Source of the DNA: Cytophagaceae bacterium
GTDB taxonomy: Bacteria > Bacteroidota > Bacteroidia > Cytophagales > Spirosomataceae
Reading direction: 5' to 3'
Assembly: GCA_947450365.1 (NCBI GenBank)
Contig: CANFVE010000007.1
Location: 1-64,000 of the forward strand
DNA: 64,000 bases
Below are positions 1 to 25,579 of this stretch, one piece after another. The notes under the pieces were generated by a model. The model was not told where the DNA came from, ran no database searches, and was given only the letters and a program-made list of their open reading frames with translations. How positions within the stretch are numbered: position 1 is the first letter of the stretch; each line of letters opens with the position of its first letter. The translations under genes and the position numbers were made by a program.

Positions 1-215
1 CACCGGTCGATTCTCATCACGACGATTCGATTAATTAAACCTTTACGGCAATCATCCAATAATTTGGCACCGGCAGGTCTCAGTTTGAAATCCAATCTAC
101 CGGATACTCCTTCATCTTTATATATCTTCCACCCTGGTTCTATTTTGTCCTCCTGGATGCCGATACTTTGAAGGTAGTACGAAGTTCTAAGATAATACGC
201 GGTTTTCTTTTCCAT
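1..215 (-). CDS. Serine recombinase, N-terminal part (cut by window edge)
   Basis: Reading leftward from an ATG at 215-213 gives 71 open codons to the window edge. The start MEKKTAYYLRTS carries the serine recombinase catalytic motif Y-x-R-x-S (Ser12). Further on come a DEGVSGR segment (residues 34-40) and VVMRIDR (65-71), where the conserved arginine stretch of the resolvase fold is expected. The catalytic domain is therefore present as far as visible; the DNA-binding part lies outside. It is transcribed away from the other element genes and may be a second integrase, an invertase or a resolvase. The family call rests on motifs I can see; the specific role is unknown. Confidence 0.8.
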   Translation of the reverse strand, partial: MEKKTAYYLRTSYYLQSIGIQEDKIEPGWKIYKDEGVSGRLDFKLRPAGAKLLDDCRKGLINRIVVMRIDR

Positions 216-327
216 GTTCGTTATTCGTTTAGGATTAAGTAAATGATAACGCTAATATCCTAGACTGGAATGGATTTCCGGAATAAAATCATTTCTATTT
301 TATATTATGGCCTAAATCTTATTCATT

Positions 328-900
328 TTAAAATTCATGGCTATAGAAATCATAAAAAGAACTATTTGATGCGTAAGAGAATACACTGATTGAATCATCC
401 CGGTAGTTTTTATACACAATGGGGTCACTTGACAACAGGTCATGAAAATGTTCCTTAGTTAGTTGGGTTAAGTAAGTGATTACACCATCTGCCGGTATAT
501 ATTCTTCTGATGAGATGTCTTATTCTGTCATTTTATAATAAATGGTCTGAGTTTCACGAATGGGTCAATTCCCACGATGCCACAGTACGGCGAAATCTGT
601 TCTATTTTAGACATATAATTATGGATTCTGATATCAATAACCCGAATCCTTATTTTATCCTCTGTTGAAAGTTCCACCTATGGCCGGTACGGCAAAAACA
701 TCCTTATAAATTACAGGAAGTGAGGTTGTATTTCTTAGCAATTCCTTAGCATTGGAACCTTCCCTTTTGTATTCATTTTCTTTATATTTATTAAAAAGGT
801 AAGAATTAGTTTGTAGTGGAGCTGATTGATACCATAAAGATTTAGAGTACTCCCCCTCATTAAAGTAACCGCCCACTACCGGTGAAATAATGGGGGATTT
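328..900 (-). pseudogene. Decayed gene of unknown function (frameshifts and in-frame stop)
   Basis: Three adjacent minus-strand segments each read like protein but in shifting frames. The first (about 900-655) contains GGYFNEGEYSKSLWYQ and ends FAVPAIGGTFNRG-stop. The next continues in another frame from STEDKIRIRVIDIRIHNYM to SPYCGIVGID. The third, after a further frame change and one in-frame TAA, reads DISSEEYIPADGVITYL and ends in FYDFYSHEF-stop at 328-330. No segment has a good start, and the first is blocked upstream by a stop near 903. The simplest reading is one gene of about 190 codons broken by two frameshifts and a nonsense change. I do not recognise the family. No other gene is visible between 216 and 908. 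Confidence 0.5.
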
Positions 901-908
901 TTAATTAC

Positions 909-2183
909 ATGTTTTCTTATTTCAATGGTGGTATTAAAAACATTAACCCAAAAAGACACATCGACTTACCTACACTGGTAAGGTTGATAAAGAATAATCC
1001 TGAGAAACTTAAAATCGAAAAGATTCGAGAACTAAGAAGGACCGGCAAGAAATATAAGGCACTTAAGGATTCTCTTCCTAATGTAACTCCTAATTGTATG
1101 GTTAGGGTCCGCAAACTTAAAGATGCTGAATACAATCTGATTGCATTATCCTCATACTTCTACTTTGATATTGATGACTATCCAAACTCACAGCAGTTGA
1201 AAGACCGGTTTATTTTGGAATATGGACATCTTGCATCCCTTATTTGTATTTCTCCAAGTAGCGGTGGTATTACAATCATTTTTAAGGTATCTAATCTTTT
1301 AAAAACTGAGAATGACTTTATTGTTGCTCGTCAATTTATAATAGATAATATATTGATTAATGTGAAATATGATACAAATGCAGAAGATATTGCTCGAGCT
1401 ATGTTTATTTCTTCTGACCCTGAATTATTCTATAACTATGAAAATGAATTAGATATTCCGGTTGAATTATTTAAAAAGACAGTAACAACTAAAGAAAAAA
1501 AGTGCCGGTTGAAAGATAAAAATCCCCTTTCTGGTTTAATACCTATCCATTGTGCACCTCAAGAACACTTCATACCCACTCCAATTAAAGAAGTACTGGA
1601 GCAACTTATATTTGAAACTCCTGTTCAAGTTGATAATCCAATCGTAGATTTTAAGGAAGTTAAATTTGTGGAGATACGATTTAAATATCTTATTAAAGAT
1701 GGATTGAAACATAAAACCTTTACAGGGATGATTCATAAGTTAATGTTTCTTAATCCAAATGCTGACAGACAATTGCTCTTATCATACCTATATCATGTAA
1801 ATAATGAATATACCGGTAACAAGAAGATGGAGTTGAAGCAACTAATCAATTTGTTTGATTTTGTTTTTAATAATGCAAAGTTTCTTGGAAACTCAGATGT
1901 TAAACAGTCGTCTAAGTGGATTCATTACAATAAGGATTGTGAAACGATATTCAACAAACGTAAGGTGTCCGGTAAGATACGTGGTTCTATTCAAAAGAAT
2001 CAAACAAAGCTAAAAATTAAAGCAATAATTGAGGAGATGGAAGAAAAGGGTCTGTCATTGTCGAAGTCAAGTATCTCAAGATATTCAGGGATTCACCGTG
2101 GTACATTGGGAGAACATATGGATTCTGAACTTTATGATATTGATAAATTAATAAGAGAAATCAACGATTCAATTGATTGTTAG
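909..2183 (+). CDS. BT4734/BF3469-like protein (VirE N-terminal type domain) with C-terminal helix-turn-helix
   Basis: This 424-residue protein has the features of the BT4734-like N-terminal domain found in Bacteroidota mobile elements. A Y-FDIDDYP segment lies near residues 84-92 and an ISPSSGGITIIFKV segment near 116-129; acidic and glycine-rich motifs of this kind are compared with primase-polymerase folds. The usual downstream VirE helicase or DUF3987 part is absent. The C-terminus (about 365-410) instead looks like a small helix-turn-helix, with LSLSKSSISRYSGIHRGTLG. It may act in element replication or its control. The start is the ATG at 909, just downstream of the decayed gene. The domain call is from memory of the motif pattern; the function is inferred. 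Confidence 0.65.
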   Translation: MFSYFNGGIKNINPKRHIDLPTLVRLIKNNPEKLKIEKIRELRRTGKKYKALKDSLPNVTPNCMVRVRKLKDAEYNLIALSSYFYFDIDDYPNSQQLKDRFILEYGHLASLICISPSSGGITIIFKVSNLLKTENDFIVARQFIIDNILINVKYDTNAEDIARAMFISSDPELFYNYENELDIPVELFKKTVTTKEKKCRLKDKNPLSGLIPIHCAPQEHFIPTPIKEVLEQLIFETPVQVDNPIVDFKEVKFVEIRFKYLIKDGLKHKTFTGMIHKLMFLNPNADRQLLLSYLYHVNNEYTGNKKMELKQLINLFDFVFNNAKFLGNSDVKQSSKWIHYNKDCETIFNKRKVSGKIRGSIQKNQTKLKIKAIIEEMEEKGLSLSKSSISRYSGIHRGTLGEHMDSELYDIDKLIREINDSIDC

Positions 2184-2265
2184 TATCACAAATACAAGAT
2201 GTAATCTTGAATAATTGCAATCTTCAATTTGATTGGCTAAATTTTCACTAATTTAATCTTATTTC

Positions 2266-3018
2266 GTGATTGTTAATATTCAAATGCCAAAGGTTGAAGG
2301 CAATATCGAAGATGGCATTAAAGTCATCAATAATGTAGTTGGTCTCCTAGAAAACAAATGGGAACAGGGTGTTTTGAATGCCGAATTTGACGAAATATGG
2401 TATTTTAATATGATTTCTTTTTATGAATACTTCAAATATGTTGACAGCCAATTGTCTTTTATACTAAATAATCGTTCCATCGTCTCTAATAAGACCAAGG
2501 AGTTTTTCATATTACGAGAGAGGTTGATTCGTGTACTTAATCCTAAAATTCAGTTACTTATTTATACTGATTCTTTAAATCACAATAAGACATGTTTCTA
2601 TGCAATTATTTCTCACCTTAATGATTTAGGGGAAGAATTATTTTCAGAAATCGAACTTGATGAATTATTGCCAGAAGATTGTAATGAATTTAATCTACAT
2701 GATTTTTTAACCGATAGATTTATTAAAAATATAAAGTCTAAGGTATATGGCTATCTTAAAACGACCATTGAAATCCCTAATAATTTGGATTTAGTTTTTG
2801 AAATGCAAAAGATATCGCATCATAACGACTATGAAGGTTATGCCAATGACTTTATGGCGGAATTACATAAATCGATTGAAAACCTTGAAGTAGATGAGTT
2901 AGAAAAATCAGATATTATCCTTTATAAAAAACTTCAAGAAATAAAAAGATTGTCCTCTAGAGTATCCAATATACTTAATAAGTTACAGGTATTAGACCTA
3001 TCAATAAAGAGGCTTTAA
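2266..3018 (+). CDS. Hypothetical protein, first gene of a two-gene cassette
   Basis: This is an uncharacterised protein of 250 residues if translated from the GTG at 2266, or 244 from the ATG at 2284 (MPKVEG...). It looks helical and fairly acidic in its central part (EELFSEIELDELLPED near 125-140), with no signal peptide or membrane segment and no catalytic motif I recognise. The tail (about 205-250) is rich in Leu, Lys and Glu and may form coiled coil. Only 11 bases separate its stop from the next gene, so the two are almost certainly co-transcribed. I considered an RteC-type regulator of element excision because of length and context, but could not find motifs to support it. Confidence 0.6.
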   Translation: MIVNIQMPKVEGNIEDGIKVINNVVGLLENKWEQGVLNAEFDEIWYFNMISFYEYFKYVDSQLSFILNNRSIVSNKTKEFFILRERLIRVLNPKIQLLIYTDSLNHNKTCFYAIISHLNDLGEELFSEIELDELLPEDCNEFNLHDFLTDRFIKNIKSKVYGYLKTTIEIPNNLDLVFEMQKISHHNDYEGYANDFMAELHKSIENLEVDELEKSDIILYKKLQEIKRLSSRVSNILNKLQVLDLSIKRL

Positions 3019-3029
3019 ATTCAAAAAAT

Positions 3030-4100
3030 ATGAAAGTTTATCTATCATCAACCCCAGAGGTTGAATCCTCGGAAGTGAAAGAAGTTTTTGATTTGTTAAC
3101 ACAAGTTGTTGGTCCAATAGAGTTTAAACAATTGCCATCGCTTTCTACCAATGAAATTGAGGCATTTGTTGAAATGGATGATTCTTTTGAAAATGTACGC
3201 TTATTATCCTTTGATGGATTATTTAATTTATGTACCGCATATCGCAGATACTACTATCAATCTCAAGGAATATCTAAAGAAGATTTCGTGGTTGTTTTAA
3301 CTGCCATTCCTAATGAGAATAAATGGTTTAGTGCATTCCGTGGTAAAAATATTTTTATAGATATAAATGATTGGGAGACCTATACCGGCAAAAACCAAAA
3401 GTACGGCATTGCTTACCAAGTAATGGAAAATATTTTCCAATCTTTTATAAACTTAAATATAGAATTGGGAGAAGTAGAATCTGAGCCCAATGTCCATTGG
3501 CATCCAATCGGTTGTATTAATGATATGTGTCAAAATAAAAGAGATATTATATTAAAGCTTAGAACCGCCGATATTTGCGAATCTTGTCAAGAGCGATTCA
3601 TCAACTCCGGAAACAGTATTGAATTAGGTTTACATATTCAAGGGGAAATTGAAAATATTAGAAAAGGAATTGTAAGGAAGTTTTTAGAGAAAGGAGAGAT
3701 AACTCCTAAAAAGGTAGAAGTTAGAAAAACCGGAAAAATTTATAAAGTATTTATTGAAGGCTTTAACAATCATGTTGATTTTGAAGCAATTGCTAGAACA
3801 TTATATGTTTTTTATTTGAAAAATCTGGAAGGAGTTAATCAATTTGATTTAGAAAAAAATTATAATGAATTAAGGGATTTGTATTTTAAAATGAGAAGAG
3901 GAGGTGATGAAAAAACACTTAAAAATTTAACTGATATAAGAGAGGGAAATTCTTTTTATTCAACAGTATGGGATATCAACAAGGCCTTAAATTCCCTTCT
4001 TGGAGAAGGATTAGTTAGTTTTTACTTGCTTAAAAAGGTTGATGATGTTTATAAAATTTCAATTGATGAAAAGTATATTTCAATAGACAAGGAGTTATAG
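3030..4100 (+). CDS. Uncharacterised protein with an archaemetzincin-like Cys cluster but no HExxH
   Basis: This 356-residue protein has three visible parts. Residues about 70-160 include VVVLTAIPNENKWFSAFRGK followed by NIFIDINDWE. Residues about 165-195 hold a likely zinc site: a C-x4-C pair (CINDMC), then 15 residues, then C-x2-C (CESC). This spacing recalls the C-x4-C...C-x2-C site that follows the HExxH helix in archaemetzincin peptidases. The catalytic HExxH is absent; AYQVMENIF stands where such a helix might be. Residues about 245-356 contain LYVFYLKNLEGVNQFDL, a pattern I associate with a helical domain in many unstudied Bacteroidota proteins. A terminator follows the gene. The fold link is an inference; no function is assigned. 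Confidence 0.6.
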   Translation: MKVYLSSTPEVESSEVKEVFDLLTQVVGPIEFKQLPSLSTNEIEAFVEMDDSFENVRLLSFDGLFNLCTAYRRYYYQSQGISKEDFVVVLTAIPNENKWFSAFRGKNIFIDINDWETYTGKNQKYGIAYQVMENIFQSFINLNIELGEVESEPNVHWHPIGCINDMCQNKRDIILKLRTADICESCQERFINSGNSIELGLHIQGEIENIRKGIVRKFLEKGEITPKKVEVRKTGKIYKVFIEGFNNHVDFEAIARTLYVFYLKNLEGVNQFDLEKNYNELRDLYFKMRRGGDEKTLKNLTDIREGNSFYSTVWDINKALNSLLGEGLVSFYLLKKVDDVYKISIDEKYISIDKEL

Positions 4101-4128
4101 TTTCCGAAAGGTTGCGGTTATTTTAAAG

Positions 4129-4167
4129 GAAGGTTCTGATGTAGTTTTCAGGACCTTTTTTGTTTTA
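4129..4167 (+). terminator. Intrinsic terminator after the two-gene cassette
   Basis: AAGGTTCTGA at 4130-4139 pairs with TCAGGACCTT at 4148-4157 (one G-T pair), with a short loop and then a T-rich run TTTTTGTTTT. It closes the 2266-4100 transcription unit and separates it from the methyltransferase gene. Confidence 0.8.
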
Positions 4168-4170
4168 CGT

Positions 4171-5895
4171 ATGGGATTTTATGTGTGGAACTTCGAGCAT
4201 CGTTTCACGCTAAACCCCACAAAAATGGAAAGCAAAACACAAATCACAGTTACCGGAACCGTTCAAAAATTGGACATTTCCCAAGTTGTCATCCCGCAAG
4301 AGATGAAAAATTTATACGACTATGAAAGTCGTTCAATGGAGGTCGATACACTTAAGACAAGTATCAAAGAGTTTGGTCAGTTAGAGCCAATCACAGTTGT
4401 AAAAGTTAACGGACAGTTTTTTATTGTCAATGGGGTGCTACGTTATCAAGCAATCCTTCGTTCTGAAAAAAATGATGTCGAAGTTAATGTATTAGAAATT
4501 GACACAGAGTCTGAGGATTTCTCACTAGCCGATTTAATTGTTCATACGCAAATCCAAAAGGTAAAAACTCCTAAAGAGAAAATGCGGGAATTCATTTCTA
4601 TTTTGAGACTTGATACCGGTGATTCAAATCCATTACGAGACCGAAACAAGAGATACGACTTTTTGTCATCTACAATGGGAAAAGGTTGGTCAAGAAGTAA
4701 TGTAATCTTAATGATGAATGTCATTAATTGGACAATGAAGAACGGGGATGAGTTGAACTTAGTTGAGCAAGTTTTTGAGGATAAAATTCGTGTTTCTGAA
4801 GCCGCATTTGCTGTGGAAACATTAGCAAGAGAAGATTATGGATATGGGAAGGAAAAAGAATCTCAAATCCTTGACAAGTTTCTAAAGGGTGAGTTCAAGA
4901 AAGATAAGGTGGAGCAATTAGTTGATACATTCAACTATAAAAGAAATGAAGGTTTTACTGAAATTGAAGTTTATCCAATCAAGACAGAGGATTATGAGGT
5001 AATTCACGGAAGCATTGAGGATGTAGAATTGCCAGTGAATATGGAAATCGACGTTGTATTTACATCACCGATATATTATAAATTACGTAAATACGGTGAT
5101 GACCCAAATGAAATGGGTTGGGAGGCAACACCACAGTTATACGCCGAGAGATTAGTTGATAGTTTGATGAAACCATACAACAGATTGAAAGATTCGGGAA
5201 GTATGTTTGTTAATCTTGGTGAAACATACGATAAGGGTCAATGCCTTGGGGTCATTGAAAATGTTGTGGTTGAAATGATTAAAAGAGGTGCGTTTTATGT
5301 GGACCGCATTATTTGGAGAAAGGATTCAAATAAACCAATATCAAATCAGAACCATAGATTCCAACCAAGTTATGAAGTTGTTCTACATTTTGCCAAATCA
5401 AGAAATTATTACTTCAATAGATTTAAGGTTAAGAAAGATGTTTCTGATTTTAAGATTTCTCGTGGATGTAAGGATTATGGTTGGGATGGCGTTAACTATT
5501 ATGTGCCAAACTTCTACAAGCAATTGCGTACAATTATGAGTGAGAACGAGCTACATGATATTGTAACGGTTCAGACCAATACGGCGAGAATCAAACATGT
5601 GGAAGGTGAAGAATATCACCCAGCAACTTTCTCTCAGATGTTACCGGCAATATTTTTGTCTACATTTTCTCCAAAGCCGACAGAGGATTATAAACCACTT
5701 GTTTTTGACCCGTTCCTAGGTGGGGCAAGTTGTGGTCGGACAGCTTTAATGATGGGCTACAGATTTTGTGGAGTCGAGCTTTATGAACAAAACGTTGAAA
5801 CATCAAAACGTATTTTAGCTGAAAGTTTACGGGAATTCGAACCTCGTGCATTGAATCAACTTGAAGCAGACAAGGTATATGAACTGGTCGCATAA
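4171..5895 (+). CDS. ParB-like nuclease domain fused to a DNA methyltransferase
   Basis: This 574-residue protein combines two domains. The N-terminal part (about 30-115) is ParB/Srx-like, with a typical segment SIKEFGQLEPITVVKVNGQ followed by VNGVLRYQA. The C-terminal half (about 270-560) is a DNA N4-cytosine or N6-adenine methyltransferase. Motif IV appears as TSPIYY (the second Pro of the usual SPPY is Ile) and the SAM-binding motif I as FDPFLGGASCGRTA followed by FCGVELYEQ. Motif IV precedes motif I, the beta-type order. Such fusions are typical of phages and integrative elements and usually lack a partner restriction enzyme; none is seen here. The ATG at 4171 lies four bases past a terminator, so the internal ATG at 4225 (MESKTQ) may be the true start. 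Confidence 0.85.
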   Translation: MGFYVWNFEHRFTLNPTKMESKTQITVTGTVQKLDISQVVIPQEMKNLYDYESRSMEVDTLKTSIKEFGQLEPITVVKVNGQFFIVNGVLRYQAILRSEKNDVEVNVLEIDTESEDFSLADLIVHTQIQKVKTPKEKMREFISILRLDTGDSNPLRDRNKRYDFLSSTMGKGWSRSNVILMMNVINWTMKNGDELNLVEQVFEDKIRVSEAAFAVETLAREDYGYGKEKESQILDKFLKGEFKKDKVEQLVDTFNYKRNEGFTEIEVYPIKTEDYEVIHGSIEDVELPVNMEIDVVFTSPIYYKLRKYGDDPNEMGWEATPQLYAERLVDSLMKPYNRLKDSGSMFVNLGETYDKGQCLGVIENVVVEMIKRGAFYVDRIIWRKDSNKPISNQNHRFQPSYEVVLHFAKSRNYYFNRFKVKKDVSDFKISRGCKDYGWDGVNYYVPNFYKQLRTIMSENELHDIVTVQTNTARIKHVEGEEYHPATFSQMLPAIFLSTFSPKPTEDYKPLVFDPFLGGASCGRTALMMGYRFCGVELYEQNVETSKRILAESLREFEPRALNQLEADKVYELVA

Positions 5896-6058
5896 AAATC
5901 GCAATATCACCGTGATTTAGATATTCTTCAAAAACATGTTGAATAATGAAATCCTCATCGAAAAGATGGGTAGGGGGATTTGTGTGTCAAATAAGTAAAA
6001 AAACATGTGGATTTAACGGTTAGGTCCACTTTTAACTAACAATTTAATTTTAAATAAA

Positions 6059-6346
6059 ATGAAAAATTATAACACAAAAGAGATTTTAGTAGATGTAGTA
6101 ATGGAAGTATTGGTAACTCAACGATTTGAGGTTCCAGTGGATTATTCTTTTGATGAAAATGACTACGATGCCGCATACCTTAAACTTATGAATGAATACG
6201 GTTCGGATATGCCAAACCTAACAGGAAGAGTTGATTTTGATGACATTGATGCTGATGAAGTTATTGATGTATATTTTCAAGGTATTGCTGATGTAACTGT
6301 GGAAGAGTGGGACGACAATAATGTTGATGACCATTCATTTTCATAA
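6059..6346 (+). CDS. Small acidic hypothetical protein
   Basis: This is a 95-residue, strongly acidic protein (many Asp and Glu, for example FDDIDADEVIDVYF near 59-72 and VEEWDDNNVDDH near the end). It has no signal peptide and no Cys. It stands alone with its own upstream A+T-rich region and a following hairpin. I do not recognise it; acidic small proteins of this size are common in mobile elements, where some act as DNA mimics, but nothing here shows that. Confidence 0.5.
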   Translation: MKNYNTKEILVDVVMEVLVTQRFEVPVDYSFDENDYDAAYLKLMNEYGSDMPNLTGRVDFDDIDADEVIDVYFQGIADVTVEEWDDNNVDDHSFS

Positions 6347-6382
6347 TAGCTCAAATTGCTCGTTTGTTTTTGTTTATATGAT

Positions 6383-6410
6383 TAGTGGCGGGGCAATGCT
6401 CCGCCTACTA
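6383..6410 (+). terminator. Hairpin, probable terminator
   Basis: TAGTGGCGGGGC and GCTCCGCCTACTA form a near-perfect inverted repeat around an AAT loop, followed only by a weak pyrimidine run (ACTTCTTTC). It lies 37 bases after the 95-residue gene and is the only strong structure in the 203-base gap to the next gene. Confidence 0.5.
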
Positions 6411-6549
6411 ACTTCTTTCAATAACAACAAATCATCGAAAAGTCAAAAGGCCACATCTTGATGTAATGATTCTGAAAATAAATAAAAGGCTTATCGTTGC
6501 ATCAAAGGTCAGGCGCCATAAAAAATACAACTTTTAAATATAGACAATC

Positions 6550-6936
6550 ATGAAAAAAGTAATCATCTATTCTAGGATTGCAGTTCTTGATGACATAGAA
6601 GGCCTAAATCCCCTTAATCGACAAGAGGAAGAATTGATAGCTCATTGCCGGGCAAATAATTATCAAATCATTGGAGCATACCGTGAGATATATTCTGGGA
6701 GCACAATAGAAAGGCCAGAGTGGTCAAAAATTAAATCATATATTAAAAACACCCCAGGTGAAATCGATACGGTCCTATCTACAGATTTCAACAGAATTGC
6801 TAGAAGCCAATTTCTTTTAATGAATGAGATAGAGGTATTTAAGGGATTTGGGGTAGAAATACAAACTACATTAGAAATAGGCCAACTGGATTATTCTGAA
6901 ATATTAAAATATTGCCCAATCATTGAAGAAGAATAA
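6550..6936 (+). CDS. Resolvase-like protein lacking the catalytic serine
   Basis: This 128-residue protein consists only of a resolvase-type catalytic domain. It begins MKKVIIYSRIAVLDD: where active serine recombinases have Y-x-R-x-S, this one has Y-S-R-I-A, so the nucleophile position (residue 11) is Ala. Other conserved features remain, including NRQEEEL (22-28), EIYSGSTIERPEW (46-58) and the paired arginines in NRIARS (about 81-86). It has no recombinase or zinc-ribbon domain and cannot be expected to cut DNA by the usual chemistry. It lies 217 bases upstream of an active-looking large serine recombinase. A regulatory partner for that enzyme or a decaying duplicate are the two readings; the ORF is intact, which slightly favours function. 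Confidence 0.75.
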   Translation: MKKVIIYSRIAVLDDIEGLNPLNRQEEELIAHCRANNYQIIGAYREIYSGSTIERPEWSKIKSYIKNTPGEIDTVLSTDFNRIARSQFLLMNEIEVFKGFGVEIQTTLEIGQLDYSEILKYCPIIEEE

Positions 6937-7002
6937 TTTCCATATCTAACAAAAAATGCAGCATAATCCATATTATCGCCATATTTTTAAACACTTCATA
7001 CC

Positions 7003-7203
7003 ATGGTAAATCAAAAAGATGCAACCAAAATCCTGAATGCCGGTAAAACCAAGTTTACCACAGAACAGGTCCTAATGATAAGAGACTTCCTTTTTTCATT
7101 AGCAGAAATAGAGTACAACAACTATATAAATGAAAATTTAAAAGAAGAAGAGCATGACGAATGTTATACATTATATCCGAGTGAGTACAGACGAGCAAGC
7201 TGA
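7003..7203 (+). CDS. Small conserved-type protein overlapping the recombinase start
   Basis: This 66-residue protein (MVNQKDATKILNAGKTKFTT...) overlaps the recombinase start by 50 bases in another frame. The segment TEQVLMIRDFLFSLAEIEY resembles short proteins that I remember encoded just upstream of serine recombinases in Bacteroidota elements. The overlap suggests coupled translation. No function is known to me; a recombination directionality or accessory role is plausible only from position. Confidence 0.6.
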   Translation: MVNQKDATKILNAGKTKFTTEQVLMIRDFLFSLAEIEYNNYINENLKEEEHDECYTLYPSEYRRAS

Positions 7204-8704
7204 AAAAGGATATTCACTTGCTCATCAAGAAAGTGTACTTTCAAAGTATTCTGAAGTAAAGGATTTTAAGGTTTTAAGAACATTTACCGAAGACTACTCG
7301 GCGAAGACTTTTGAAAGACCGCAATGGAACAAAATTCTTGCGTTCATAAAGGCGAACAAGGGACTGGTTCAAAAAATTGTTTTTTTACGGTGGGACAGAT
7401 TTAGCAGAAATCAGTTAGACGCCCTAACAATGATTAAGTACCTCGATAAATTGGGTATTAAAGTTGAATCTGTTGAACAGCCATTAGACTTGTCAATACC
7501 AGACAATAAAATGTTGTTGGCTTTGTATCTAACGGCTCCAGAGATTGAAAACGACAAGAACTCTATTCGAACCACAGAAGCTTCAAGACGTGCAAAATTA
7601 GAGGGTTGTTGGATGGGTACTGCACCCAAAGGTTATAATAACTTTAGAGATGGGAAGAACTCGACATTAATCCGAAACGAGAAGGCTCCATTAATTATTG
7701 AATCATTTGAAAGAATGGCCTCAGGAGCATATTCGGCAGATGAGGTTCGTAAATGGTTATACTCTAAGGGAGTCAAAATGACCAAAAATAACTTCCCAAT
7801 CATTATTAGAAACCAAGTTTATATTGGGAAAATTCATGTTAAAGAATACAAAGACAACCCTGAAGTATATGCAAAAGGACTACATGAACCATTAATATCA
7901 GAAGAACTCTTTTATAAAGCTAATGATGTTTTAGATGGCCGGAGAAGAAATATGAAGTTTGGATTAGATAAAACTGATTTATATCCTCTCAAGGGTTTGT
8001 TAAAATGTCCTGTTCATTCACAACGGTCATTAACTGCATATGCCTCAACAGGTAGAAGTGGCTCAAAACATCATTACTATTTGTGTCCAAAATGTGATAA
8101 AACCCAAAGACATCGAATTGGAGATGTTCATGATAGCATTGAGGACATATTAAAATCGATTCAGTTTTCTGCAGAATCAGTTAAGTTATACCACTCAATT
8201 CTTGAGAAAGTAATGAGCCGTGAAGAAGTCAATAAGGCTAATGATTTATCCAAATTACAGAAGGATATAGAACGTATTCAGACAAGACAGACAAACCTTT
8301 TAAATACATTCTTAGATGGAGAGTTAGGCTCTAAGGCATACAACGAAATAAAGTTCAAATTAGACGTTGAATTAGTGTCGTTAAATGACAAAGTTGCAAA
8401 CATTAAAGAGAATGGTAGTTTATTTAGAAGCTATGTTAAAAAACACATTCCTATGTTAGAGAACCTCGTTTCCTACTACAGAAGCGCTAATGGTACTACA
8501 AAATTTAAGATATTGAGTTGCATCTTTGATGAAAAACTGATAGTTGAAAATGGAAGAGTTGCAACCACCCCATTCACTGAACCAATTCGTGTCCTATTTG
8601 ATTTAAATGAAGTTTTGAAAGAGTCTAAAAACAAAAAAGAGGTCGATTATGACCTCTTTTTGATTACCGCTCCCTCTCTTGGGCTTGAACCAAGGACCCC
8701 ATGA
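7154..8704 (+). CDS. Large serine recombinase, probable integrase of the element
   Basis: This 516-residue protein has the full large serine recombinase layout. The catalytic domain starts MTNVIHYIRVSTDEQ with Ser11 as nucleophile and includes WDRFSRN (about 80-86). A recombinase domain follows (about 160-265). A zinc-ribbon type segment runs from about 285 to 325 with LLKCPVHSQ and YYLCPKC. A coiled-coil-like stretch lies at about 365-430. The last residues APSLGLEPRTP are encoded by the tRNA-Asn T-arm region, and the stop lies inside the tRNA. The C-terminus is therefore made from the target site, consistent with integration at the tRNA 3' end. After excision the reading frame would end differently. 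Confidence 0.9.
   Translation: MTNVIHYIRVSTDEQAEKGYSLAHQESVLSKYSEVKDFKVLRTFTEDYSAKTFERPQWNKILAFIKANKGLVQKIVFLRWDRFSRNQLDALTMIKYLDKLGIKVESVEQPLDLSIPDNKMLLALYLTAPEIENDKNSIRTTEASRRAKLEGCWMGTAPKGYNNFRDGKNSTLIRNEKAPLIIESFERMASGAYSADEVRKWLYSKGVKMTKNNFPIIIRNQVYIGKIHVKEYKDNPEVYAKGLHEPLISEELFYKANDVLDGRRRNMKFGLDKTDLYPLKGLLKCPVHSQRSLTAYASTGRSGSKHHYYLCPKCDKTQRHRIGDVHDSIEDILKSIQFSAESVKLYHSILEKVMSREEVNKANDLSKLQKDIERIQTRQTNLLNTFLDGELGSKAYNEIKFKLDVELVSLNDKVANIKENGSLFRSYVKKHIPMLENLVSYYRSANGTTKFKILSCIFDEKLIVENGRVATTPFTEPIRVLFDLNEVLKESKNKKEVDYDLFLITAPSLGLEPRTP
8634..8661. terminator. Bidirectional-looking hairpin between recombinase body and tRNA-Asn
   Basis: AAAAAGAGGTC at 8634-8644 and GACCTCTTTTT at 8651-8661 form a perfect 11-bp stem around GATTAT. 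On the minus strand it starts 8 bases past the tRNA 3' end and is followed by T-rich DNA, so it can terminate the tRNA-Asn transcript. It lies inside the recombinase reading frame (codons for KEVDYDLFL). Confidence 0.75.
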
Positions 8705-8743
8705 TTAACAGTCATGTGCTCTAACCAACTGAGCTAAGAAGGA
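8670..8743 (-). tRNA. tRNA-Asn (anticodon GTT)
   Basis: The minus strand folds as a 74-base tRNA. The acceptor stem pairs TCCTTCT with AGAGGGA, with discriminator G. The D arm reads GCTCAGTTGGTTAGAGC. The anticodon stem is CATGA/TCATG around CTGTTAA, giving anticodon GTT. The T arm pairs CTTGG with CCAAG around TTCAAGC. No CCA is encoded. The 3' 35 bases are shared with the recombinase reading frame, making this the likely chromosomal target of the element. Confidence 0.95.
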
Positions 8744-8765
8744 GTTTCTCCCATAACGGGAATGC

Positions 8766-8816
8766 AAAAATAGGGGGCTATTTCATTAAATGCAAGATAG
8801 CCCCCTTATTTTTTTG
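8766..8816. terminator. Intrinsic terminator, probably bidirectional
   Basis: TAGGGGGCTA at 8771-8780 pairs with TAGCCCCCTTA at 8798-8808 (one bulge). A run TTATTTTTTTG follows on the plus strand and TATTTTTG on the minus strand. It sits directly after the 3' end of the adaptor gene (stop at 8820) and closes the TolC-adaptor operon. Confidence 0.85.
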
Positions 8817-19984: not shown

Positions 19985-20926
19985 TTATTTTTTTGGATTC
20001 AGCAAATGGCTTCGAACGGCATCAACAAATAAACTACTGGGAAATTGCTGAATAAATTGAAAACCAAGCTTTTCGTCTTGAAACTGATCTAGCTGAAGAT
20101 ATTGATATAGCGCATCGTCCGCATAAATATCCAACGGGAATTTTTGATAACATTCTAAAAAGAGAGATTTCGCTCCTGAGAAATCCTTTTTTTGAAAAGC
20201 GCGTTGGGCCCGCAGATAGATGATATCATCGAGTAGATTTTCTTGAGGAGGCGAATTTAAAAATTTATCCAAGGCCTCATCGGCAGCTTTCCATTTCTGA
20301 AAATTTTGCAGTTTTTGAATTTGAACCCATTGACGAACATCTTTCTCTAAGGAATCGATTCCCAAATGATCATCCAAAAACATTCTCAGATTCAAGGCAT
20401 CATTCGCAATTTCACGATCAGTTCCTTGTTTTAAAATATCCAACAACTCTTTAGCCAAATCAAAATCTCCTGCATAATAATAGGCCTTCGCCGTCCGCCA
20501 CTTGGACTCATATGCCAAAGGCGAGTCTTTTACTTTCTTTTCTGCTTTTGCATAGGACAATAAGGCTTCGTAATGTTGACCCATCGAACTCTGTGCATCG
20601 CCCATGAGCAAAAGAACGCGAGCCTGAGCACGTGGATTTAAGTTATCCACATTTTTTCCACACACATTGATTAAATATGATTCTAAATTATCTTCATAAA
20701 TTTTATTTAACACATCATTAATCAATATTGCACCAGAATGAAAGGATTTTGTGAATAATTGGGCTATTAATTCTTCTTTTTGCTTTGAATAGGCAGGTGT
20801 TTGAATGAATGAGAGGCTCTGGCTAAATTCTAATGCCACCAAACTATCAGTCGGGGCAGTCTGAAATTGAAACGCAAACAAATAGTTTGGAAAACAGAAA
20901 AGCAAAATGAATAAAGTTTTCCACAT
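19985..20926 (-). CDS. Secreted tetratricopeptide-repeat protein
   Basis: This 313-residue protein has a signal peptide (about 1-19, LFILLFCFPNYLFAF) and helical repeats. ARVLLLMGDAQSSMGQHYEA, KWRTAKAYYYAGDFDLAKEL and AQRAFQKKDFSGAKSLFLEC look like TPR units. It probably acts as a protein-interaction scaffold in the periplasm. It is the gene immediately left of the putative origin and is transcribed away from it. Specific function is unknown. Confidence 0.75.
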   Translation of the reverse strand: MWKTLFILLFCFPNYLFAFQFQTAPTDSLVALEFSQSLSFIQTPAYSKQKEELIAQLFTKSFHSGAILINDVLNKIYEDNLESYLINVCGKNVDNLNPRAQARVLLLMGDAQSSMGQHYEALLSYAKAEKKVKDSPLAYESKWRTAKAYYYAGDFDLAKELLDILKQGTDREIANDALNLRMFLDDHLGIDSLEKDVRQWVQIQKLQNFQKWKAADEALDKFLNSPPQENLLDDIIYLRAQRAFQKKDFSGAKSLFLECYQKFPLDIYADDALYQYLQLDQFQDEKLGFQFIQQFPSSLFVDAVRSHLLNPKK

Positions 20927-21199
20927 GGTATATTAAAAAAAATTAAATTTTTAAATATCTCTTTTTTGTTTTTAATTATTGTTCTCTGTGGATAAGTGGA
21001 TAAGTACAAATTTACTTTATAAACGATTGGTTATTAATTAATTATCACTTTTACTAGCCCTAGGTTGATGTGGATAAGTTTGCACATTTATGTGGATAAG
21101 TGTTGGTTTATCCACAGGAGTCCTATACGTAAATTTATTATCCACAGTCATCTTTCTTAATTGTGGATAAATTGTGGGTTTATTCGGGACTTATCCACA
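20927..21199. other. oriC: Chromosomal replication origin (oriC): DnaA-box cluster
   Basis: Seven perfect 9-mers TTATCCACA lie within 213 bases. Four are in the minus orientation (20987-20995, 21069-21077, 21091-21099, 21162-21170) and three in the plus orientation (21108-21116, 21138-21146, 21191-21199). An overlapping variant AGTGGATAA is at 20995-21003. To the left lies an A/T-only-like stretch (about 20930-20980) suited to unwinding, with another A+T-rich stretch at 21001-21056. The last box is inside the 3' end of the next gene. mnmG, three parS sites and the strand-composition change nearby all fit an origin. dnaA itself is not in the window. Confidence 0.92.
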
Positions 21200-22814
21200 G
21201 GTCTGTCAACTGAAAATTAGCCTTTAATTTTATTTTACCAGGTAAATAGTAAATCGGTTCTGGCTTTGTTTTGGTCATAAAATTACCAATATCCCAATAT
21301 CCATTTTCATTCTTATCGTGTATGACACGAACCGTATAGGTACCCGGTTCCACGTGTGGAAACGAAAAGCGACCGGTGCTCGCTTGTTCATAAGCGATTT
21401 GGCCGTTGGTCGTTAGAATTAACTGGAATATAAAACGCCCTGTGGCGCCTTTAATTCCGCCTTCCATGATTCCGTATTGTTCAAGATCTTGGAATTGATA
21501 ATTCTGTTTATAGGCCTCACTTGTGTCGCTTTCGATGCCGACAAATGCACCTTTGGCGATGGATAGATCAAATTTTTCCCGCATAGGCAAATACGCTTTA
21601 TTGATACGCAGTGTATTGGAAACGTTGTTCCACGCATAGGCTTCGTCGGGCAACAAAATAAATTCATCTGGGCCTGTCACGAATTGGATTCGTTTCGAAT
21701 CCCATCCGATTACTGGTTTGGGCAAAAGGATTAGCAAAGAATCTTCCGGGGATAAATATTTTCCAGCGGCAGGCAATACCGTAACGGGCAAGGTGCTTTT
21801 ACTTGCTTTTTCTTTGGTGGCTAATTCTCGGAATTTAATTTTCAGTGGAATTTTGTAAGGCCTATTGAGTGAATCTTTTAGAATAGCTGTAACAAAGAGG
21901 GTGTCTTTCTTTTCTAATTGTTGTGCGTAAAATCGTAAGCTTCGGTTATTTTCTATTTGGAACGCGAGATTTAATTTTGGATCTTTTTCGAGTGAAAATT
22001 CTTTAATTCCCCGGCTAAAATCATACAAAACGGTTTTGGCCGTAGAGGTGGTTTTCGAAATTTTTAACGGATCTTGGTTTTGTAAGGCAATCGCGAAATC
22101 TTGCTTTGTGCTTTTTGTCAAGTTCAAAAAGGATTCCGTGATGAAATCAACGGGCTCTTTGCTCGAGTTATACAATAAATTATTATTCAGGTCCTGAAAC
22201 GCCGCCATGTAATATTTTCCTGCCGCGATATTTTCCAAAACGTATAGGCCTGACGTGTCCGTTTTGGTGAAATAATAGGGTTTGGTTTTGTCGATGCGCA
22301 AGGTATCTGTATAGGGATATAGGCCAACTAACACGTTTTCTACGGCCTTATTCAGTTGAAGGCTCTTCACTTTTCCTTGAATGCTTAGTGAATCGATATT
22401 TTCGGAAGTGCTGAAAACGAGCTTGATGTTTTTACCTATGTTTCGCTCCGACATATCCTCAATCGCATTTCTGAAATTAAACGTATAGGTCGTGTTTTCT
22501 TTTAATGCGCTATCTAAAAGTAGGCTTAGTCCTGTGGGGCGCAATTTCGTTTCATAGGTTCCTACATTCGGGGTAATCAAAAGTTCTTGATTTAGATTAC
22601 GAACTGTAATGTATTCGTTAAAGCTAAGTTCAATTTTCTTGCCCTTGAAATTTTTGCTTTTGTGCAATGGACTTGAGCTAACTATTTTGGGAGCGAGCGT
22701 GTCTTTTTTCCCGCCGGGTGGGCTTGCCATTTGGGCGCAACTTTGTAGAAGTAAGTTGGACGCGATTAGCCCAACAAACAATATAGCCAACGCTCTTTTC
22801 AAGGAATTAAACAT
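21180..22814 (-). CDS. Ig-like domain lipoprotein
   Basis: This 544-residue lipoprotein has a signal sequence ending in the lipobox LLQSC (Cys26). An N-terminal bacterial Ig-like domain (Big_5 type, about 40-135) opens with DTLAPKIVSSSPLH and includes ELSFNEYITVRN. Carboxypeptidase-regulatory-like strands follow (SGLYVLENIAAGKYYMAAF, about 188-206). The C-terminus ends with YTVRVIHDKNENGYWDIGNF. This architecture is common and conserved in Bacteroidota, with no established function. It is probably on the outer membrane. The stop codon lies within the origin region. Confidence 0.8.
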   Translation of the reverse strand: MFNSLKRALAILFVGLIASNLLLQSCAQMASPPGGKKDTLAPKIVSSSPLHKSKNFKGKKIELSFNEYITVRNLNQELLITPNVGTYETKLRPTGLSLLLDSALKENTTYTFNFRNAIEDMSERNIGKNIKLVFSTSENIDSLSIQGKVKSLQLNKAVENVLVGLYPYTDTLRIDKTKPYYFTKTDTSGLYVLENIAAGKYYMAAFQDLNNNLLYNSSKEPVDFITESFLNLTKSTKQDFAIALQNQDPLKISKTTSTAKTVLYDFSRGIKEFSLEKDPKLNLAFQIENNRSLRFYAQQLEKKDTLFVTAILKDSLNRPYKIPLKIKFRELATKEKASKSTLPVTVLPAAGKYLSPEDSLLILLPKPVIGWDSKRIQFVTGPDEFILLPDEAYAWNNVSNTLRINKAYLPMREKFDLSIAKGAFVGIESDTSEAYKQNYQFQDLEQYGIMEGGIKGATGRFIFQLILTTNGQIAYEQASTGRFSFPHVEPGTYTVRVIHDKNENGYWDIGNFMTKTKPEPIYYLPGKIKLKANFQLTDLWISPE

Positions 22815-23691
22815 GTTCGAAAATATACAAATTACTTGAATAATTCCCGGTCTTTTTCCACGCTAAGAGGTTTGACCAAAGACCTATGACAAATGACAGG
22901 AACATTTTTTTGCTTCCTGTTTTGTATTGATGGCTCAGCAAGGCAATGTAAAAGCTATCAAAAATTTGGCCGCGTTGTTTGGCTAATCGGAAGCCATAGC
23001 GCACTGCGAGCGAATGAATCGTTGCCGGATCAAAATGATAGATATGTCGTGGAACATCGTAGGCTGCCCAATATTCACCAAAAAATGCTGCATCAAAGCT
23101 TTTTGAATTAGGCAATGCGAAAAGTAATTTACCGCCGGGTTGAATACGTGCTTTAAAAAATGCAAAATATTCCTCGAGTTCGTATACGTGTTCTAATACG
23201 TGCCATAGGCTGATCAGTTGAAATTTTTTGTCGGCGGGAATTTCATGTAGGTTGGCATAAACCGGTTGTTGGATTAGCTTGCTGGCTCGTTGGGCCGTTG
23301 CAGGATCTAATTCCATGCCGGAGATGTTCCAGCCGGCTTGTTGGCATGCGTGTAAAAAATGTCCGTTGCCACAACCGATATCCAAAAGTTCTTTCGTTCC
23401 ATGTTGATATTCACCTATCCAATTTGTTTTTTGGCGCAGGGTAATATTGCGGACACGGTGATAGAGCGCATTGATGAAACCTTTTTGGGTATTGCTATGC
23501 GAGATGTAATCGTCGGACTGGTAATAGGGTCCGGCCTCATTGGCGCGAGGTCTGGGATTTGTGAATAACAGTTCGCAGCTTTCACAGCGAACGATGGAAA
23601 ACCGCTCCCTTGAAACCGTATAATCCTTGGCTGCTAAGAATAGTTTTTGGTGGGCGTGTCCACAGGCGGGACATTGTTGTAATGTTTCCAT
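22807..23691 (-). CDS. Class I SAM-dependent methyltransferase with N-terminal zinc-ribbon motif
   Basis: This 294-residue protein begins METLQQCPACGH, with a second CESC pair near residue 37, so a small zinc ribbon precedes the methyltransferase fold. SAM-binding motif I is ELLDIGCGNGHFLHAC (about 99-114), followed by ISLWHVLEHVYEL. Such proteins are often involved in surface glycan or small-molecule methylation, but the substrate is unknown. I chose the ATG at 23691, one base after the mnmG stop; an ATG at 23727 would add 12 residues overlapping mnmG. Its 3' end overlaps the lipoprotein start by 8 bases. Confidence 0.85.
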   Translation of the reverse strand: METLQQCPACGHAHQKLFLAAKDYTVSRERFSIVRCESCELLFTNPRPRANEAGPYYQSDDYISHSNTQKGFINALYHRVRNITLRQKTNWIGEYQHGTKELLDIGCGNGHFLHACQQAGWNISGMELDPATAQRASKLIQQPVYANLHEIPADKKFQLISLWHVLEHVYELEEYFAFFKARIQPGGKLLFALPNSKSFDAAFFGEYWAAYDVPRHIYHFDPATIHSLAVRYGFRLAKQRGQIFDSFYIALLSHQYKTGSKKMFLSFVIGLWSNLLAWKKTGNYSSNLYIFEHV

Positions 23692-23692
23692 A

Positions 23693-25552
23693 TTATCGAC
23701 CCATGAATAAAAGTAAAATGGATACATCGGAAGCGGATACGCCAGAAATGCGGCTTGCTTGTCCGATGGTTTGAGGACGAATGGATTTTAATTTGATTCG
23801 GGATTCCGTGGACAAGGTTTTGATTTTATCATAATCAAAATGTTCGGGGATACCCAAGTCCTCCATGTTCTTCATTTTGTTCACCATCAGCCGCTCTTTC
23901 TCAATATAGCTTTCGTATTTCACAACGATTTCCACTTGTTCGATCACCTCTTGTGAATATCGGGATTTAATTTCTTTTCCAGATTCGTGTGTGAGCAATT
24001 GCTCAAAACTTAGGTCCGAACGTTTGAGCAAATTCAACAATGGAGTGCCTTCCCGGATTTGTGATGTGCCTTGATGTTCGAGCCAGGAATTAATTTCTTC
24101 TGGTTTTATTTTTAAGTTTTTTATTTCAGCGGTTAGATTGGCTACCGCAGATTTTTTTTCATGGTATTTATCCACTCGATCTTGTTTGGCCATTCCGATA
24201 GCAGCACCTTTTTCAGTAAGGCGTTCGTCGGCATTATCTTGGCGAAGGAGCGTTCTAAATTCTGCACGCGATGTAAACATGCGATAGGGCTCGTCTGTTC
24301 CTTTGTTGATCAAATCATCGATCAGCACGCCTATGTATGCATCCGACCGAGATAGAGTAAACGGGTCTAATTGATGTGTTTTCTGGTGAGCATTGATGCC
24401 GGCCATTAAGCCTTGGCATGCGGCTTCTTCGTAACCAGTTGTGCCGTTGATTTGTCCTGCGAAAAATAAGCCGGATACGCGTTTTGTTTCTAGGGTGGAA
24501 AGCAATTGTGTTGGTGGGAAATAATCGTATTCGATGGCATATCCCGGTCGGAACATTTTGGCTTTTTCAAAACCTGGAATTAATCGGATGGCTTCAAACT
24601 GTATATCTTCTGGCAAAGACGTAGAGAATCCATTGACATAGATTTCAACGGTTTTCCAGCCCTCCGGCTCCACAAATATTTGATGACTATCTTTATCCGC
24701 AAATCGATTGATTTTATCTTCGACGGATGGACAATAGCGGGGACCTAAACCTTTGATTCTTCCGGCGAACATGGGCGAACGGTCAAACCCTTTGCGAAGA
24801 ATCTCGTGCACTTTTTCGTTGGTATGTGTAATCCAGCAAGATCTTTGTTCCGTCAAAGATCCCGTGCTCATGTAAGAAAAATGGCTCGGATTTTCGTCTC
24901 CTTTTTGTTCTTCCATGGAAGCGAAATCTAAACTTCGCCCATCCACTCGTGGAGGTGTTCCGGTTTTCATTCGTCCAGATTCAAAACCCAGGCCGATTAA
25001 TTGTTCCGTTAATCCCATCGCCATCGGTTCCGCCATGCGCCCTCCCCCGAAATTTTTTTCACCGATGTGGATAAGTCCGTTTAAAAAGGTTCCGTTGGTT
25101 AACACAACTGATTTTGCCTCAAACGTCATTCCCATGCGGGTGATGACGCCTTGGACTTCGCCTTTTTCGACGAGTAATTGCTGCACAGAATCCTGCCAAA
25201 AATCGACCAACGGGGTTTCCTCTAATGCCCATCTCCATTCCTCTGCAAAACGCATACGATCGGATTGGCATCTTGGTGACCACATGGCAGGCCCCTTTGA
25301 CCGATTCAGCATTCTAAACTGAATCATCGTTTTGTCCGAAATAATCCCTGACATCCCCCCGAGTGCATCAATCTCCCGAACGATTTGTCCTTTGGCCACC
25401 CCTCCCATGGCTGGATTACACGACATTTGTGCAATAGTCTGCATGTTCATCGTAATCAACAACACACGGGAACCCATTTGTGCCGCCGCGTGTGCCGCTT
25501 CACATCCTGCGTGTCCCGCTCCTACTACAATGACGTCGTATGTATGTTGCAT
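23693..25552 (-). CDS. mnmG: tRNA uridine-5-carboxymethylaminomethyl modification enzyme MnmG (GidA)
   Basis: This 619-residue FAD enzyme forms, with MnmE, the cmnm5 modification at the wobble uridine of several tRNAs. The FAD motif is [12 protein letters not shown] near 9-20, followed by [19 protein letters not shown] (about 44-62) and later [17 protein letters not shown] use the ATG at 25552 (MQHTYDV); an upstream frame start at 25579 would add MFHVEHPKN, which is only the translation of a parS palindrome. mnmG is a classical neighbour of bacterial replication origins, and here lies about 2.5 kb from the DnaA boxes. Confidence 0.96.
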
Positions 25553-25562
25553 GTTTTTGGGG

Positions 25563-25578
25563 TGTTCCACGTGGAACA
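25563..25578. other. parS: parS site 1 (ParB-binding palindrome)
   Basis: TGTTCCACGTGGAACA is a perfect 16-bp palindrome matching the bacterial parS consensus TGTTNCACGTGNAACA. It lies in the 27-base gap between the ybeY stop and the chosen mnmG start. Confidence 0.9.
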
Positions 25579-25579
25579 A

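Follow-up and report, generated by a model that had tools for sequence, protein, structure and literature searches.

A putative chromosomal origin of replication at the 3' end of an Ig-like gene in an Aquirufa-like Cytophagales bacterium

The window analysed here comprises bases 1-64000 of contig C7 (95,835 bases) from a genome of 2.66 Mb in 61 contigs that is 93.6% complete. It contains a dense group of DnaA boxes beside A+T-rich DNA, which raises the question whether replication of the chromosome starts at this place. The initial annotation had proposed a putative chromosomal origin, and this proposal is supported by the box cluster, the low stability of the adjoining DNA, conservation in relatives and a local switch of GC skew. 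We are highly confident that positions 20917-21199 form the oriC of an Aquirufa-like Cytophagales bacterium. Boxes, duplex stability, conservation, skew switch and orientation of the parts were all computed here. The parts of the putative origin and four neighbouring genes are given below; counts in brackets refer to 32 aligned loci of the genus.

20917 to 21199, no strand: putative oriC, with a left inward-facing box, an unwinding element, tandem boxes and a box array
20917 to 20925, plus strand: left DnaA box, degenerate TTTTCCACA, overlapping the TPR start codon (exact TTATCCACA in 23/32, one mismatch in 9/32)
20926 to 20986, no strand: DNA unwinding element (DUE) by duplex stability, 61 bp, 87% A+T
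20966 to 20970, plus strand: TTGTT, on the R1-side strand (TTGTT in 31/32, TTATT in 1/32)
20976 to 20980, plus strand: TTATT (TTATT in 13/32, TTGTT in 19/32)
20979 to 20982, plus strand: TTGT overlapping the preceding TTATT (TTGT in 21/32, TTAT in 6/32, TTGA in 5/32)
20987 to 20995, minus strand: DnaA box adjoining the DUE, with side and orientation as in E. coli R1 (exact in 29/32, one mismatch in 3/32)
20995 to 21003, minus strand: overlapping tandem DnaA box TTATCCACT (no mismatch in 2/32, one in 24/32, two in 6/32)
21069 to 21077, minus strand: DnaA box (exact in 18/32, one mismatch in 13/32, two in 1/32)
21091 to 21099, minus strand: DnaA box (exact in 20/32, one mismatch in 10/32)
21108 to 21116, plus strand: DnaA box (exact in 21/32, one mismatch in 9/32)
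21138 to 21146, plus strand: DnaA box (exact in 9/32, one mismatch in 17/32, two in 6/32)
21162 to 21170, minus strand: DnaA box (exact in 18/32, one mismatch in 8/32, at least three in 6/32)
21191 to 21199, plus strand: DnaA box within the 3' end of the Ig-like gene (exact in 11/32, one mismatch in 18/32, two in 3/32)
19985 to 20926, minus strand: TPR-like gene, by Pfam TPR matches
21180 to 22814, minus strand: Ig-like (Big_5/DUF2141) gene, whose 3' end is the conserved position of the box cluster
22807 to 23727, minus strand: SAM methyltransferase-like gene, between the Ig-like gene and mnmG
23693 to 25579, minus strand: mnmG (gidA), about 2.5 kb from the origin and also a neighbour of oriC in E. 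coli

All seven exact TTATCCACA boxes named in the initial annotation were recovered at their positions, four on the minus strand (20987, 21069, 21091 and 21162) and three on the plus strand (21108, 21138 and 21191), as was the overlapping variant TTATCCACT at 20995-21003, which has one base in common with the box at 20987. Together they form a cluster of 213 bases (20987-21199). The whole 64-kb window holds nine exact boxes against 0.60 expected, a number that was reached in none of 100 shuffles; the remaining two lie at 20643 (plus strand) within the TPR gene and at 25066 (minus strand) within mnmG. A crude Poisson estimate puts the probability that a given box has six more within 205 bp at about 3e-18. 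The cluster is far above chance, as had been judged earlier. The 2.66-Mb genome has 53 exact boxes in total and 36 copies of the reversed control word. Within the TPR-like gene, some 270 bp to the left of the origin, 20643-20662 also contains an exact box and a TTTTCCACA box whose starts are 11 bases apart; an exact box to the left of the main cluster is likewise present at several other loci of the genus.

A second, better cluster elsewhere would speak against an origin at this locus, but none was found in the two genomes that were scanned whole, the window's own (93.6% complete) and that of the single-contig relative G007; in both, the cluster at this locus is the largest. Eight of the 53 exact boxes of the window's genome are located in C7:20643-21199 and the next tight group consists of three at C9:55895-55958. 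G007 has 10 of its 42 exact boxes at 1241620-1242044, beside the same Ig-like gene, and its runner-up group also has three.

The gene neighbourhood agrees with what had been described. The dnaA gene is not adjacent but on another contig (C21), where no exact box was found in the 4.4-kb dnaA locus. The flanks were said to be genes for a TPR protein and an Ig-like lipoprotein, and TPR-like and Big_5/DUF2141 genes are indeed present, with all Pfam TPR matches of the former below the gathering score. Since the box at 20917 overlaps the TPR start and the last box (21191-21199) lies, as had been noted, inside the 3' end of the Ig-like gene (ORF 21180-22814), the origin region touches coding sequence at both ends. 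In Aquirufa antheringensis (L073), where ORF translations were inspected by eye to name the genes, mnmG is followed by the methyltransferase gene, the Ig-like gene, the origin and the gene for an AMP-binding enzyme, and no TPR-like ORF of at least 150 aa is present beside this origin. The origin is kept where the TPR gene is missing. At the left end of the window, positions 1-8800 have a low GC content (0.337) and encode two serine recombinases (6550-6936 and 7154-8704) as well as a DNA methylase (4171-5895) whose N-terminus is ParB-like. This stretch is a probable integrated mobile island and lies some 12 kb away from the origin.

In named genomes, 15 loci with a relative of the Ig-like gene were collected: Aquirufa rosea, A. 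aurantiipilula and A. antheringensis at 59-60% identity, eleven Cytophagales MAGs at 61-89%, among them one with the title Spirosoma fluviale, and a remote match of 28% in Flavobacterium. The 13.5 kb around the Flavobacterium relative (L075) contain no exact box and two boxes with one mismatch. For the genus, 32 loci (the window's own genome and 31 relatives) from 37 genomes were aligned over 581 bases. Two genomes gave no match to the Ig-like gene (G012 and G015) and three are outside the alignment because the gene is cut or in pieces (G003, G026 and G019, the last with its 3' piece on C34); a locus with eight exact boxes (L072) is probably the origin of G026. In 32/32 aligned loci the Ig-like gene has the cluster at its 3' end, with at least seven boxes at no more than one mismatch in each locus. 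Exact boxes range from 2 to 11 per locus, with only two in six of the loci. The Ig protein of the 31 relatives is merely 58-67% identical to that of the window.

Conservation extends beyond the genus. The Ig-like gene was found in 22 outside genomes from 20 families, and 10 of these 22 have a cluster near its 3' end (boxes with at most one mismatch) that was unmatched by 200 random sequences, these being first-order resamples and not exact dinucleotide shuffles. The largest of these significant clusters has 12 boxes in 300 bp (G040), the smallest ones three boxes (G048, G050 and G054). Three further genomes are borderline, as they were matched by 1, 5 and 6 of the 200 random sequences, and nine are at background. 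The latter include G042, where the match to the Ig-like gene covers residues 1-254, so the stretch tested may just miss the end of the gene.

GC skew was sampled in eight genomes of the genus (G000, G005, G007, G013, G016, G020, G021 and G034), the window's own genome, which is in 61 contigs, being sampled locally. The nearest samples have negative raw skew on the left and positive raw skew on the right in all eight, so that the negative-to-positive switch is present at the locus, in two genomes across hundreds of kilobases. On the 779-kb contig of G021, raw skew is negative in 9/9 left samples and positive in 4/5 right samples, the remaining one being slightly negative. When fourfold sites are taken and genes of the two strands averaged, 8/9 left samples are negative and 5/5 right samples positive; the ninth left sample consists of genes on one strand. 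On the 766-kb contig of G034, both raw and fourfold skew are negative in 5/6 left samples and positive in 7/7 right samples, with the leftmost sample positive. Farther away, one left sample of G013 has a raw skew of 0.000 and is positive at fourfold sites, and one right sample of G020 is negative at fourfold sites. The first 8.8 kb of the window, the mobile island, also have positive skew.

Whether the skew minimum lies elsewhere had been named as a check on the origin. The switch lies at the locus in G021 and G034 and locally in the six other genomes, but G007, the only genus genome in a single contig, gives no clean V. Among 20 places over this whole chromosome, 4/10 left samples are negative and 7/9 right samples positive, and a correction to fourfold sites still yielded no clean V; the five samples within about 70 kb of the locus fit in raw skew. 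Two places in G007 (C1 1350001-1495000; L087 and L088), +118 and +243 kb away, have clearly negative skew (-0.084 and -0.071), against the expected sign, possibly through an inversion or faulty assembly. For the chromosome as a whole, a rearrangement or misassembly is possible. The 9-Mb single contig of the order-level relative G040, sampled at 15 places, has no readable skew despite its box cluster at the locus. At the runner-up cluster no negative-to-positive switch was seen in the three genomes examined (G034, G005 and G007): fourfold skew in G034 is negative on both sides (5/5 samples; raw skew mixed), the nearest samples in G005 go from about zero to negative, and the samples in G007 are positive on both sides.

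The A+T-rich flank that had been reported corresponds to the DUE at 20926-20986. Both the least stable 50 bp and the least stable 100 bp of the 64-kb window begin at 20929, the latter extending into the boxes, and a low-stability element for unwinding thus adjoins the cluster. The DUE occurs as 29 distinct sequences over the 32 genus loci, yet positions 20976-20980 read TTGTT or TTATT in 32/32. In E. coli, DnaA holds TTGT and TTATT motifs of the melted strand (PMC10316083). At the genus loci, the upper strand has two to five of them per locus and the lower strand none or one, and their strand polarity is that at R1 in the oriC of E. coli MG1655. The motifs therefore lie on the DUE strand of R1 polarity, though their count is above that of shuffles at p<=0.05 in only 6/32 loci, since this strand is T-rich anyway.

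We also looked for the DnaA-trios of the BUS type, by the rule that three or more NAN, read 3' to 5' away from a DnaA box, lie within 16 nt of it (PMC8287927). Beside the conserved box at 20987, on the strand of proper polarity, runs of at least three occur in 0/32 loci; the runs are 0, 1 and 2 long in 13, 7 and 12 loci, respectively. Other boxes of the window have runs of up to six (at 20750 and 20917) and three other inspected loci have runs of three or four that adjoin different boxes, to be set against random positions, about a third of which give runs of at least three and 5% runs of six. The A-rich lower strand at the DUE was considered as a trio array and rejected, as its polarity is wrong for a BUS. 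Because the TTGTT/TTATT motifs are conserved and trios are absent at the box at 20987, melting is more likely E. coli-like than trio-like.

For the putative oriC we infer the following course of events up to bidirectional replication. DnaA would bind the TTATCCACA array (21069-21199) and the tandem pair at 20987-21003 beside the A+T-rich element 20926-20986. The resulting DnaA oligomer would melt this element and could hold its T-rich upper strand via the TTGTT/TTATT motifs, as in ssDUE recruitment in E. coli. Helicase would be loaded next, and two forks would depart in opposite directions.

Clusters of DnaA boxes do not only occur at origins; E. coli has the datA/DARS-like ones. The locus could accordingly be a regulatory or titration cluster that binds DnaA without being an origin, and the presence of another conserved box cluster elsewhere in the genus fits such a role. 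We nevertheless consider this very unlikely, as the cluster adjoins the least stable DNA of the window and a skew switch, a switch of this kind is missing at the other cluster in G034 and G005, and it is the present locus that has the most boxes in both genomes scanned whole. A DnaA-controlled promoter region of the flanking TPR gene would explain why a box overlaps the start of this gene, but it leaves the skew switch unexplained and agrees poorly with the position of most boxes, which lie towards the 3' end of the Ig-like gene; moreover, the cluster persists without the TPR gene in L073, and we hold this explanation to be highly improbable.

The serine recombinase genes and the low-GC island at 1-8.8 kb, about 12 kb leftward, could point to a remnant origin of a plasmid or integrated element. 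Such a remnant would hardly be expected to keep its position at this gene end throughout the genus and in 10 further families, nor to have the mnmG and methyltransferase genes nearby, as the cluster does in A. antheringensis, and we give it next to no credence.

Read as a chromosomal origin, the locus resembles E. coli oriC in several respects. An exact box with the orientation found in E. coli (TGTGGATAA right of the DUE) immediately adjoins the DUE, the T-rich strand on the box side carries TTGT/TTATT (motifs and box names as in PMC10316083), and mnmG is near while dnaA is distant, as it is from oriC in E. coli (PMC6669920). It differs in that its boxes are mostly exact consensus and of mixed orientation, that an overlapping tandem pair flanks the DUE and that the gene neighbours are Ig-like and TPR-like. 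With the BUS of Bacillus subtilis it shares a tandem box pair that borders the element to be melted, but not the runs of at least three trios within 16 nt of the box at 20987 (0/32 loci).

The initial annotation stated that origins are rarely mapped in this lineage. This is fair in part, but predicted origins of Bacteroidota have been published (PMC4755523, PMC11278836, PMC12843772). In Bacteroidetes, origins are stated to be commonly distant from dnaA, and the one predicted for Prevotella intermedia is, like the present one, a group of DnaA boxes where the skew switches, remote from dnaA (PMC4755523). Those of Mariniflexile and Algorimicrobium (Flavobacteriaceae) are also mnmG-linked (PMC11278836, PMC12843772); the oriC and ter labels are swapped in a figure legend of PMC11278836 relative to its text. 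In contrast to these predicted origins, mnmG is here 2.5 kb away, the direct neighbour is the Ig-like gene, and the evidence includes a 32-locus footprint. Plasmids used in Cytophaga hutchinsonii are listed as carrying oriC (PMC5288383). A search of the literature, with predicted-origin databases such as DoriC outside its reach, found no paper that mentions both Aquirufa and oriC; matches to a search for DARS2/datA in Bacteroidetes appear unrelated, and the part of PMC3025954 that was available gives no Bacteroidetes dif consensus. With its familiar parts, conserved in relatives, the putative oriC is very probably a well-supported new example of such a site and not a surprise.

With this locus, a freshwater genus gains a well-supported origin as well as a portable marker, namely a box cluster at the 3' end of a Big_5/DUF2141 gene near mnmG, which was present in 10/20 further families of the order. 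Such a marker would permit the orientation of draft genomes, peak-to-trough growth rates from metagenomes and the design of oriC vectors. In addition, E. coli-like and trio-like melting in Bacteroidota could be tested against each other on this natural footprint.

The second conserved cluster, which is not an origin, is a more novel lead than oriC itself. In the window's genome (C9:55895-55958, L004 1501-1564) it has an HTH_3 gene on one side and a PRA-PH (MazG-like) gene on the other, and a gene for an OmpR-type response regulator then follows the PRA-PH gene. A sample of 30 of the 34 genus matches (L157-L186) was inspected, and in 29/30 loci at least three exact boxes lie within 150 bp, shortly before the PRA-PH gene; the exception, L169, was set aside because its contig begins at the gene start. 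The group in G007, about 0.89 Mb from the origin, has its three boxes in tandem, and that in the window's genome has two plus one convergent. Tentatively, Aquirufa might possess a two-site DnaA circuit, in which oriC is joined by the second cluster; the latter would either control DnaA in a datA/DARS-like manner or be a DnaA-timed promoter. We regard this circuit as possible but rather doubtful. If the second cluster were a DnaA-timed promoter, it would couple replication to nucleotide metabolism. A repeated TTGTGCACAATTGT-like motif adjoins the boxes of the second cluster in L159-L162, L164-L168, L170, L171, L174, L176, L179, L181, L182 and L184, and is possibly the site of another regulator or a degenerate DnaA box.
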